Shown piece after piece: positions 1 to 23,503 of a stretch of 64,000 nucleotides of DNA. The DNA comes from Siniperca chuatsi (taxonomy: Eukaryota; Chordata; Actinopteri; Centrarchiformes; Sinipercidae), in assembly GCF_020085105.1 (NCBI RefSeq), contig NC_058046.1, positions 11,073,675 through 11,137,674 on the forward strand, read 5' to 3'. The notes below the pieces were generated by a model. The model saw only the letters and a program-made list of their open reading frames with translations. It made no database searches and had not been told where the DNA came from. How positions within the stretch are numbered: position 1 is the stretch's first letter; each line of letters opens with the position of its first letter. The position numbers and the translations under genes are program-made.

Positions 1-1163
1 CTTTACCCTCAGCTTCTTTAGCAAGGCACTAGTCGTCTTGGAGGTGTGTTTGGGGTCGTTATCATGTTGGAATACTGCCCTGTGGCCCAGTCTCCGAAGG
101 GAGGGGATCATGCTCTGCTTCAGTATGTTACAGTACACATTGGCATTCATGGTTCCCTCAATGAACTGTAGCTCCCCAGTGCCGGCAGCACTCATGCAGC
201 CCCAGACCATGACACTCCCACCACCATGCTTGACTGTAGGCAAGACACACTTGTCTTTGTACTCCTCACCTGGTTTCCGCCACTCACGCTTGACAACATC
301 TGAACCAAATAAGTTTATCTTGGTATCATCAGACCACAGGACATGGTTCCAGTAATCCATGTCTTTAGTCTGCTTGTCTTCAGCAAAACTGTTTGCGGGC
401 TTTCTTGTGCATTATCTTTAGAAGAGGCTTCCTTCTGGGACGACAGCCATGCAGACCAATTTGATGCAGTGTGCGGCGTATGGTCTGAGCACTGACAGGC
501 TGACCCCCAACCCCTTTAACCTCTGCACAATGCTGACAGCACTCATACATCTATTTCCCAAGCACAACCTCTGGATTTGACGCTGAGCACATGTACTTAA
601 CTTCTTTGCTCGACCATGGCGAGGCCTGTTCTGAGTGGAACCTGCCCTGTTAAATCGCAGTATGGTCTTGGCCACCGTGCTGCAGCTCAGTTTCAGGGTC
701 TTGGCAATATTCTTATAGCCTACTCCATGTTTATGTAGAGCAACAATTCTTTTTTTCAGATCCTCAGAGAGTTCTTTGCCATGAGGTACCATGTTGAACT
801 TCCAGTGACCAGTATGAGAGAGTGAGAGCGATAACACCAAATTTAACACACCTGCTCCCCATTCACACCTGAGACCTTGTAACACTAACGAGTCACATGA
901 CACCGGGGAGAGAAAATGGCTAATTGGCCCAATTTGAACATTTTCACTTAGGGGTGTACTCACTTTTGTGGCCAGCGGTTTAGACATTAATGGCTGTATG
1001 CTGAGTTATTTTGAGGGGACAGCAAATTTACACTGTTATACAAGCTGTACACTCACTACTTTACATTGTAGCAAAATGTCATTTCATCAGTGTTGTCACA
1101 TGAAAAGATAAAATAAAATATTTACAAAAATGTGAGGGGTGTACTCACTTCTGTGAGATACTG
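1..1163 (-). mobile_element. Tc1/mariner DNA transposon, truncated by the window edge
   Basis: The right end is a Tc1 inverted terminal repeat: the outer copy (about 1135-1163, read on the minus strand as CAGTATCTCACAGAAGTGAG) abuts a TA at 1164-1165. A second, similar copy lies inside at about 951-971, giving the IR/DR double-repeat design of many fish Tc1 elements. The transposase reads leftward from an ATG at 790-792. It begins MVPHGKELSEDLKKRIVALH, a paired-like helix-turn-helix, and the catalytic core further left includes WSDDTK (first Asp) and FQHDNDPKHTS (second Asp). The third acidic residue lies outside the window. The frame is disrupted near 420-470 and again before the core, so this copy is not expected to make an active enzyme. 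Confidence 0.93.
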
Positions 1164-13281: not shown

Positions 13282-13761
13282 ACTGTATAAAGCTGAGCTT
13301 GTCTTTTCTTCAGTGCCACTGTCTCGATGTTGTACAGCTTAGAGACAGTGGCACTGAAGAAAAGACAAGAGGCAGAGCTGGAGGTAGCAGAGCTTAAGAT
13401 GTTGAGGTTCTCTTTGGGAGTGACGAGGACGGACAGGATCAGGAATGAGTACATCAGAGGGACAGCTCATGTTAGATGTTTTGGAGATAAAGTCAGAGAG
13501 GCCAGATTGAGGTGGTTTGGACATGTTCAGAGGAGAGACTGTGAATATATTGGTAGAAGGATGCTGAGGTTGGAGCTGCCAGGCAGGAGGTCTAGAGGAA
13601 GACCAAAGAGGAGATTTATGGAAGTAGTGAGAGAGGACATGAAGTTAATTGGTGTGAGTGAAGAGGATGCAGAGGACAGGGTTAGATGGAGGCACATGAT
13701 TCGCTGTGGCGACCCCCGAAAGGGAACAGCCGAAAGGAAAAGAAGACTGTATAAAGCTGAG
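13282..13761 (+). mobile_element. 5'-truncated RTE-type LINE insertion with target duplication
   Basis: The insertion 13298-13745 is flanked by perfect 16-bp direct repeats ACTGTATAAAGCTGAG at 13282-13297 and 13746-13761, a textbook target-site duplication. The body encodes the C-terminal tail of an RTE-clade reverse transcriptase polyprotein (VTRTDRIRNEYIRG, RLRWFGHVQRRD, RSRGRPKRRFMEVVREDM) in one open frame, ending in an A-rich tail. The 5' end carries a 28-base inverted duplication (see the hairpin at 13298-13369). The intact direct repeats and open frame suggest a fairly young insertion. It cannot move by itself because most of the LINE is absent. Confidence 0.88.
13298..13369. repeat. 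Perfect 28-bp inverted repeat at the LINE 5' junction
   Basis: Arm 13298-13325 is the exact reverse complement of 13342-13369, with a 16-base loop between (13326-13341). The left arm begins at the very edge of the target duplication, so the inversion was made during insertion. Confidence 0.95.
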
Positions 13762-14196
13762 CGAATGTAATGCTACTTCAAGCTTTTGGTATCTGACTGT
13801 GTCCATGTGTACATGCTGTACCAAGAACTTCTCTGAAATCAGATTTGTGTTGTAATAAACTATGAACAACTGAGGCTCATCGAGTTTATTCTTCTACTCA
13901 TTGAAGTGACGTTTTCCCACATCACTAATTAAACTGGTATGTGATATTACTTCATTGTTGTGAAATCATGACAAAGAAAATAAAGAAAGTCTGACTTTTT
14001 TTTTTTACAAGAAATAAGAATCAGTGACATTTGAGCACTAAAAGCTCTCAGTGAATGTACATGAAAGTGTATTCAACCTTCTGCTGTGAATGTCATTGTT
14101 CACAGTAAGTGTAGTTATACTGCAAGTGTGAAGATAACAGGGTACTCCAACTACCCTGGACCTGTGTGGTCCTTTTGAAAGCCGCTGTGTTATTAT

Positions 14197-18829: not shown

Positions 18830-18912
<83 letters not shown>

Positions 18913-21362: not shown

Positions 21363-21370
21363 GTATATAG
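21363..21370 (+). promoter_or_regulatory. TATA-like element upstream of the unrecognised secreted gene
   Basis: GGGGTATATAGCAGG lies about 115 bases before the chosen start codon at 21480. A start of transcription near 21395 would leave an 85-base leader. Confidence 0.45.
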
Positions 21371-21479: not shown

Positions 21480-23503
21480 ATGGCCTCCTGGCACTGCAAA
21501 TGGATTGTTCTATTTCTTCTCTCGATATTGACAAGTGACATTGGAGTATTTAGTCGCGCAGTAGACACGCTGGGATTTCTGTCACAGTCGCCGAAAACTG
21601 CAGATGACTCCTCCGGACCAACTTTACGCATGGACGCGTTGAGACGGTGGAGGCGCGGGATCGCGGAGACGAACCGGGAGCGGTGCGCAGAGCTGGCGGC
21701 GCCTTGGCTGGAAAACACACAGCAAGCTCCTGAGGATAATGCAACACTGTTGCAGCTCCGCGTTAGGCCCTTTTCCCCGGGAGCCTCCCAGGGCCTGGTG
21801 TTCCCAGGAAAATCTCTTTTCAGCTTTGTCCGACGGGTTTACCACTGCTGTCAGGAGGGACTGAACTGCAGAAGCGTAAAAGGAATTCAAGGTCGCTTGA
21901 GAGGAGGTAAGACAAACTAGATCCGGCTAAAACACATGCGTTGTCATAATAAACTTTCTTCTACTATAGAATTGAAATGTTGGTTGTGTTGGGTTAGGCA
22001 TGGTGAGGCAAGGAGACACACATGTGTCCCCAATTGGCTGCTGAGCTCAGTCAGAAAAACTGAAGATGTTTAGGTTTATTTTCCATGTGGTTAATTCCAC
22101 TAAATGTAGCTCAATGCAACATATAAAAGTAGTTATTGTGACCACAGGCCTGGTGTCTCCACATGTGGACTGTAGACCCCAACCATCAGGAGGGCTTTGA
22201 GAGCCAAACCCCTAACAGTGGTGATAAATTCTCCAACTGCATCAAAACACATCATTGCTATTACTTTACATTACTTTGAATTTATTTCTCGACCATGAAA
22301 CACACTCATTCGATTTGAAATCAAGATATCTACAGCATAAAACGCTGCATGGGAATTAAAAGGTAATAATGTAAGTCAGAGGGAATGATTAGCCTTGCTC
22401 ATTAAAAGCATTTACATTCATTCAATATAGGAATGAATGAATGCATCTTTTAGCAGGAAAAAGATGCATTATAAACAGCCTTAAGCAGCCATATGCAAAC
22501 ATATATGGCGTTGAAAGAGTGACACTGTGCAGGACTGTCACAAGCTGTGGAAGTGAATGCAGAAGCAGTTGGGCGGACATTAATGACTTGATTAATGCAG
22601 CTGTATTGAGAACCATGGTATCTGCATACAAATGAGTCTTTGCTGGCTTAATGTCCCCTCCAAGAATAGTTGAGATATCCTGCTGCCAGATTAACAAGGT
22701 ATTAGGAGTGAAAACATCACCTCTGTGGTGGAGATCCTACTCTAATCCATGGGATTTATCAAACTGGAGCCTGACATGAGTGTATGTGCTGCTCTGTGAC
22801 ATGAAATTCTCCATCTGAAACTGTACTGTGACTCTGACAGACTCTTGACTGCCTCTCCTCCTCCTCCTCAGATACAGACGTGGAGTTTCTCCTCACCAGG
22901 GAGATTTTATCATTGACAGTGATGAGAGCCGAGCTTCACCTCCAACTTTCCAACCCACAACATCTGGATGTCCATCCTGTGCTTTCTTCTATGGCAAAGC
23001 GTGACCTTCCTACAAGGTAAAAACTCTTCTCTCAATATGTTCTGTACTTTGATTAATTTAGTGTTTTACACAAATTCTTAATTTCGGTCACTCTAGACTG
23101 ATGGCCTCTGGGAGTCTCAGGCCTGGTTGTAATCCTGTTGTCTCTCGCTTCCTTTAGGTACAGTTTGTGGTCACGGGGCAACACGATGGAGCTGAGAGTG
23201 GATCTGCTGTTCCTTTTCCAGAGTCTGCAGGAGGTAGCGGGTGGTGCCGGAGGGGGTCCCAGCTTGGTCAACATGCGGCGGGTGGTGTTTTCTTCCAGGG
23301 GGGATCCACCAAGAGAAAAGCCCACTTCAGGAGCTCTGCAGGACACTGATGGTGATGTGTGGGGGGATGGGGTCGCTAACACGCTGCCTGTTCTGGAGCT
23401 GGGCTTGGTCCTGGGATGCAGTCAGGCTGGATCAGGAGTGTCCTGTGGAACTGGCGGTGTTCACCTCTCACACACACCTTTCATGGCTCTGTACTACAGA
23501 TGA
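21480..23503 (+). CDS. Secreted protein, not recognised; possibly TGF-beta propeptide-like
   Basis: Three exons (21480-21906, 22872-23016, 23158-23503) join in phase to 305 residues. The first 20-25 residues are a signal peptide (CKWIVLFLLSILTSDIGVFS). One N-glycosylation site (NAT) follows, then a distinctive segment FSFVRRVYHCCQEGLNC, a predicted beta-rich stretch across the exon 2-3 junction (LTVMRAELHLQLSNPQHLDV, ELRVDLLFLFQSLQ), a glycine-rich linker, and a tail with GCSQAGSGVSC that stops at FMALYYR. I do not know the family. The alternating strands and length recall a TGF-beta superfamily propeptide, such as that of inhibin alpha, but no cystine-knot mature domain follows. That resemblance is weak and is inference only. 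The ATG at 21480 is preferred because it starts the signal peptide. A likely poly(A) signal ATTAAA is at 23716-23721. Confidence 0.75.

Follow-up and report, generated by a model that had tools for sequence, protein, structure and literature searches.

The question raised by this locus of Siniperca chuatsi is whether a gene can encode a propeptide of the TGF-beta type without the ligand that normally follows it. A sequence-only reading had proposed such a propeptide, lacking a mature domain, for a three-exon gene at 11.095 Mb of contig C5. The gene was analysed within a window (the whole stretch of DNA examined, 64,000 nucleotides, C5:11073675-11137674). All coordinates in Table 1 are positions in this window.

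The three exons join to a frame of 305 residues ending with ALYYR*. Both introns have GT-AG borders, and their phases are 1 and 2. When codon scores were calculated, the intended frame was the best of six in every exon (28.0, -0.3 and 33.8 bits for exons 1, 2 and 3, respectively). The background came from a presumed noncoding stretch at 33-43 kb, of which 1,500 samples were each scored in their best frame of the six. Its maxima were -23.0 at the length of exon 1 and -10.4 at the length of exon 3; exon 2 (144 nt) is too short for a decision, with -0.3 against a noncoding maximum of 9.4. The G+C content was 0.41 and 0.39 in the introns, and 0.59/0.49/0.57 by codon position in the coding sequence. 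A TATA box approximately 115 bases upstream of the ATG and a polyadenylation signal 213 bases downstream of the stop codon flank the presumed transcript, so that the gene appears compact and complete. The alternative that these are chance open frames without a gene was rejected as very improbable: the three exons are in phase and have consensus splice sites, a signal peptide is present, and exons 1 and 3 score far above noncoding DNA in codon use. The three-exon gene for a secreted protein is confirmed, and its exons join as cleanly as had been described.

Table 1. Features of the candidate gene and of its surroundings, in window positions
Feature	Position	Strand	Basis or remark
Neighbouring gene hps4 (putative name)	to 19996	+	ORFs by eye
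TATA box (GGGGTATATAGC), TATATA; putative core promoter	21364..21369	+	pattern scan
Exon 1, coding	21480..21906	+	signal peptide and N-terminal half (codons 1-142, plus one base of codon 143)
R-W-R-R, residues 56-59	21645..21656	+	pattern scan
N-glycosylation sequon NAT (N87)	21738..21746	+	pattern scan
Cysteine cluster VYHCCQEGLNC	21837..21869	+	translation, pattern scan
Exon 1 donor GAG/GTAAGA, phase 1	3' end of 21480..21906	+	
Exon 2, coding; beta1-beta2 of the arm (putative)	22872..23016	+	
Block A, FLLTREIL; putative beta1 region, invariant Phe unmatched in register	22886..22909	+	chain path, 4.2 bits
Block B, TVMRAELHLQLS; putative beta2 (family AELRI/AEFRI/ANVWL)	22916..22951	+	chain path, 4.4 bits
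Exon 3, coding; stop codon TGA at 23501-23503	23158..23503	+	
Block C, LRVDLLFLFQS; putative beta3	23192..23224	+	chain path, 2.0 bits
Block E, CSQAGSGVSCGTGG (family LSLRVSCPLCTEAG)	23417..23458	+	chain path, 1.2 bits
Block F, LSHTPFMALYYR (family SHRPFLVVxAR); putative last arm strand, ending at stop	23465..23500	+	13.3 bits
Polyadenylation signal ATTAAA	23716..23721	+	pattern scan
Neighbouring gene mlec (putative name)	~28.0-32.6 kb	-	ORFs by eye
Neighbouring gene asphd2 (putative name)	~50-51 kb	-	ORFs by eye
Neighbouring gamma-glutamyltransferase gene (putative name)	~57-61 kb	+	ORFs by eye

The protein begins with a hydrophobic core at residue 6 that resembles a signal peptide (12-residue mean hydropathy 2.34; highest later 19-residue mean 1.27). 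N87 is the sole residue in an NxS/T context. Cysteines are present at positions 6, 69, 123, 124, 130, 278 and 287, six of them after the signal peptide. The signal peptide, the single N-glycan site, the Cys-Cys motif and the end of the frame at ALYYR had all been reported before and were found again. R-W-R-R at residues 56-59 was taken to be a furin-type site. A furin site separating a pro part from a mature part was not found; RxxR occurs only within residues 55-59.

The mature domain was searched for in two ways. All 2,849 window ORFs of 15 residues or more were scanned with an HMM built from five mature domains; the best score, at 55.0 kb, was 8.3 bits (E 0.52). A genome-wide search with PF00019 yielded 66 exon matches, none of them inside the window; the nearest on contig C5 are at 8.99 Mb and 18.98 Mb, the closest being approximately 2 Mb from the gene. 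A knot exon after the stop codon is therefore very unlikely, and the mature domain is missing as had been claimed. A complete TGF-beta ligand with an overlooked knot exon would fit the propeptide-like layout; given the two blank searches it was rejected, with hardly any probability left to it.

Searches of the protein against Pfam, NCBIfam and PDB sequences gave nothing relevant; the PDB search returned only two chance matches (E ~1). PF00688 (TGFb_propeptide), the expected fold if the propeptide reading is right, had 59 exon matches genome-wide, none of them at the candidate gene, and did not match the protein at E<=10. Three control sequences of this fish were submitted to Pfam: the inhibin-alpha propeptide, which had been joined by eye, and two arms of the INHB type. 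The inhibin-alpha propeptide matched no family, one arm matched only an unrelated weak family, and the other matched PF00688 with 24.7 bits, just under the cut-off. Because Pfam also misses the INHA propeptide and one INHB-type arm of this genome, its silence cannot exclude the activin/inhibin branch. Profile comparison with hhalign gave a probability of 2.1% against the inhibin set, where SCGTGGV..HLSHTPFMALY alone was aligned with the last strand, and of 0.3% against 14 arms. An arm domain was thus recognised neither by PF00688 nor by hhalign, and INHA of the same genome also fails in Pfam. The blindness of PF00688 to the inhibin-alpha propeptide and to one INHB-type arm of this fish implies, apart from the present gene, that TGF-beta family genes will be undercounted wherever the Pfam propeptide model is used to count them.

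Family sequences were taken from the same genome, and 14 arms and 6 arms were aligned. The activin/inhibin beta loci (INHBA/INHBB type; L046, L062-L065) and the INHA loci (L053/L075) were named by eye. Six ungapped blocks of the 6-member alignment (five INHB-type genes and one INHA gene) were chained in order with free spacing. With these blocks, which had been marked only after the likeness had been noticed, residues 141-305 (exons 2 and 3) obtained a chain score of 10.3 (z 4.2). This score was reached by 0 of 2,000 and 1 of 3,000 shuffles, by 1 of 5,000 exon-wise shuffles, and by none of 193 E. coli segments taken from long ORFs, the best of which scored -1.1. With the chain model built without INHA, 0 of 2,000 shuffles were as good. 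Five of the six blocks were above 0 bits and in the expected order; block D (family SGWHTF) was poor on the chain path (-14.7 bits). As positive controls, 13 non-inhibin arms scored from -22.2 to 32.0, the candidate being higher than six of them, and INHA, when left out, scored 27.5. On the chain path the candidate shares four of the 13 invariant residues of the six arms (V21, C108, P137, F138). Those not shared are F9, W27, E68, W78, T80, L101, V103, C105 and L139, which include both tryptophans and the beta1 phenylalanine. The fit leans on the last block, without which 57 of 1,000 shuffles were as good, and it is weaker when the secreted protein is taken in full (44 of 3,000 shuffles as good). 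Taken from sequence comparison, a likeness of exons 2 and 3 to the arm domain is suggested.

Gapped profiles were compared with shuffled sequences and decoys. For the inhibin set, 4 of 1,000 shuffles and 0 of 69 decoys (34 E. coli CDS) were as good as the candidate; for all 19 arms, 14 of 1,000 and 2 of 69. When the profile was restricted to non-inhibin arms, 42 of 200 shuffles were as good, and INHA itself was equalled there by 13 of 100. Under nine gap settings, 1 or 2 of 200 shuffles were as good in eight and 17 of 200 in the strictest. The best gapped path with the inhibin set skips exon 2 and puts the middle of the protein on beta1, agreeing with the blocks only near the end. Ordinary HMMs and pairwise tests remained at or near noise. 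An HMM of seven human propeptides gave -0.6 bits (5 of 300 shuffles as good), and one of six fish arms was equalled by 85 of 1,000 shuffles. The beta1-beta2 hairpin HMM alone detected nothing (656 of 2,000). Global pairwise alignment with fish INHA resulted in z 2.1 (22 of 1,000 shuffles as good); against human INHA, 119 of 1,000 shuffles equalled the candidate and 0 of 1,000 equalled fish INHA. The alpha-1 helix (RIEAIRGQILSKLRL) was not found in the candidate (839 of 2,000 shuffles as good; 144 of 2,000 for the first seven columns), and INHA was no better on this block. Pairs of regular-expression motifs were matched by 13 of 20,000 shuffles; these motifs had been picked by eye and were not counted as evidence.

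In all 11 genes of one family set (donor examined in 10, acceptor in 8) and in all 6 inhibin-type genes, the best-scoring splice site before beta1 of the arm is in phase 1, hence in 17 of 17 genes examined. Intron 1 of the candidate has the same phase. It lies 5 residues before F148, the start of beta1 as judged by eye (family gap 8 to 22 by count), and its place agrees with the family only if residues 146-150 are beta1. Phase 1 introns are common in vertebrate genes, and the family sites are consensus sites rather than sites taken from transcripts, so that the match adds modest weight. The second intron of the candidate splits the arm, whereas in the six inhibin-type genes the arm and the start of the knot are in one open frame.

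Besides the phase-1 intron before the putative beta1, the candidate and the activin/inhibin beta propeptides have in common an LSL-V-x-x-A-x-x-x-L hairpin (by eye) and the putative last strand SH[RT]PF[LM]; a C-x(8)-C piece of the candidate is located where these propeptides have CxxC. Unlike them, the candidate has neither a furin site nor a cystine knot after the last strand, carries the extra intron inside the arm, leaves block D unmatched, has only the four invariant residues named above, and has no recognisable alpha-1 helix. Compared by eye with the INHA propeptide, the same elements were found in the same order: a short N-terminal part that is followed by an Arg-rich site, then [IL]-[IV]-FP, a cysteine, the hairpin, cysteines, and TPF[LM]. 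Both are blank in Pfam, but INHA keeps its mature domain.

The earlier proposal of a TGF-beta propeptide is thus retained in part. The ordered-motif fit, the intron phase and the nearness to activin/inhibin speak for it; it lacks a significant match in Pfam, PDB or hhalign, few invariant residues are shared, and no alpha-1 helix is recognisable. Our tentative reading is that the gene encodes a secreted glycoprotein in which residues 143-305 may be a diverged propeptide arm of the TGF-beta family, nearest to activin/inhibin, with no cleavage site and no cystine-knot ligand. We consider homology of the arm domain to be somewhat less than an even bet, and a new, unrelated secreted family to be about as likely. 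The latter, to which we give close to an even chance, would attribute the arm likeness to chance and to a leucine-rich composition; cleavage at RWRR (56-59) would perhaps release a product of 246 residues resembling a growth factor or a carrier. The silence of every database search (hhalign 2%), the different path of the gapped alignment, the 4 of 13 invariant positions, the absent alpha-1 helix and the lack of a genome paralogue at E<=10 agree with an unrelated family. Against it stand the block fit, which 1 of 3,000 shuffles and none of the 193 segments of real sequence equalled, an intron phase shared with 17 of 17 TGF-beta family genes examined, and a stop codon directly after the putative last arm strand. 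This last point holds only if block F is right, in which case the protein stops just after the strand (SHTPFMALYYR; family SHRPFLVVxAR).

It is improbable that the gene is a diverged inhibin-alpha-like or activin-like precursor which has lost its knot, leaving an expressed remnant in decay. In favour of such a remnant are the inhibin-like motifs and the position of the stop close to the pro/mature border, but splice sites, frame and codon use are intact, the gene is compact with its own TATA box and polyadenylation signal, and the 2,849 window ORFs (15 residues or longer) yielded no knot remnant.

Folding, latency and targeting are under the control of the pro-domain in the TGF-beta family. 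To our knowledge, such pro-domains have been described only within ligand precursors or as splice forms. If the propeptide-arm reading is correct, the product would be secreted as a free pro-domain. Its arm surface and cysteines would bind a mature dimer of the activin/TGF-beta family, a sister pro-domain or a co-receptor, and the bound product would restrain or present a ligand encoded by another gene; binding and regulatory effect are here inferred only. Since the inhibitory N-terminal parts of the myostatin propeptide are not visibly kept, a plain alpha-1 trap would be less likely than a mechanism in which the arm captures the ligand, the product pairs with a sister pro-domain, or a co-receptor is bound. 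That fishes possess a dedicated gene for a free, ligandless pro-domain of the activin/inhibin type, a propeptide-only branch regulating other family members, is less likely than not on present evidence. If true, it would show that evolution can make an independent regulator of a pro-domain, and an unlisted component would be added to activin/inhibin signalling in fishes.

In activin A, the affinity of the pro-domain for the mature part corresponds to a Kd of 5 nM, and the pro-domain covers the receptor and follistatin sites; the processed pro-activin A complex nevertheless equals the free ligand in activity (PMC4932183). A free pro-domain of the activin type therefore need not be a strong inhibitor. 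Follicular fluid contains free inhibin alpha subunit; products of precursor processing include alphaN, and competition for betaglycan has been proposed (PMC6930203). In flatfish, N-terminal parts of the myostatin propeptide are reported to suffice for inhibition (PMC6472743). A precedent in the way of working, likened by its description, is a sheep myostatin splice variant (MSV), reported as a pro-domain product that lacks the receptor-binding part (PMC3846833); MSV arises from a ligand gene by splicing, whereas the candidate is a separate gene. A search of one open library (titles and abstract starts) gave nothing on the present gene or on a separate knotless gene of the TGF-beta family.

The protein was searched against the 718.8-Mb genome (E<=10, best candidates scored), which resulted in three matches, all to the gene's own exons. 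A paralogue was accordingly rejected, and the gene is single-copy. Viral and prokaryote collections were searched with exon 1 only; the 2 and 65 pattern matches, respectively, were not confirmed by tblastn. Should the arm likeness fail, what remains between hps4 and mlec is a single-copy gene for a secreted protein that none of the searches performed here could name. Elsewhere in the window, an ORF at 418-1005 (- strand) has a sequence resembling the N-terminal helix-turn-helix of Tc1/mariner transposases (by eye). Another at 13297-13770 (+ strand), near hps4, looks like the last part of a reverse-transcriptase frame from a retrotransposon (RLRWFGHVQRR; by eye). An intron of hps4 holds a long (AT)n run at approximately 18835-18910.
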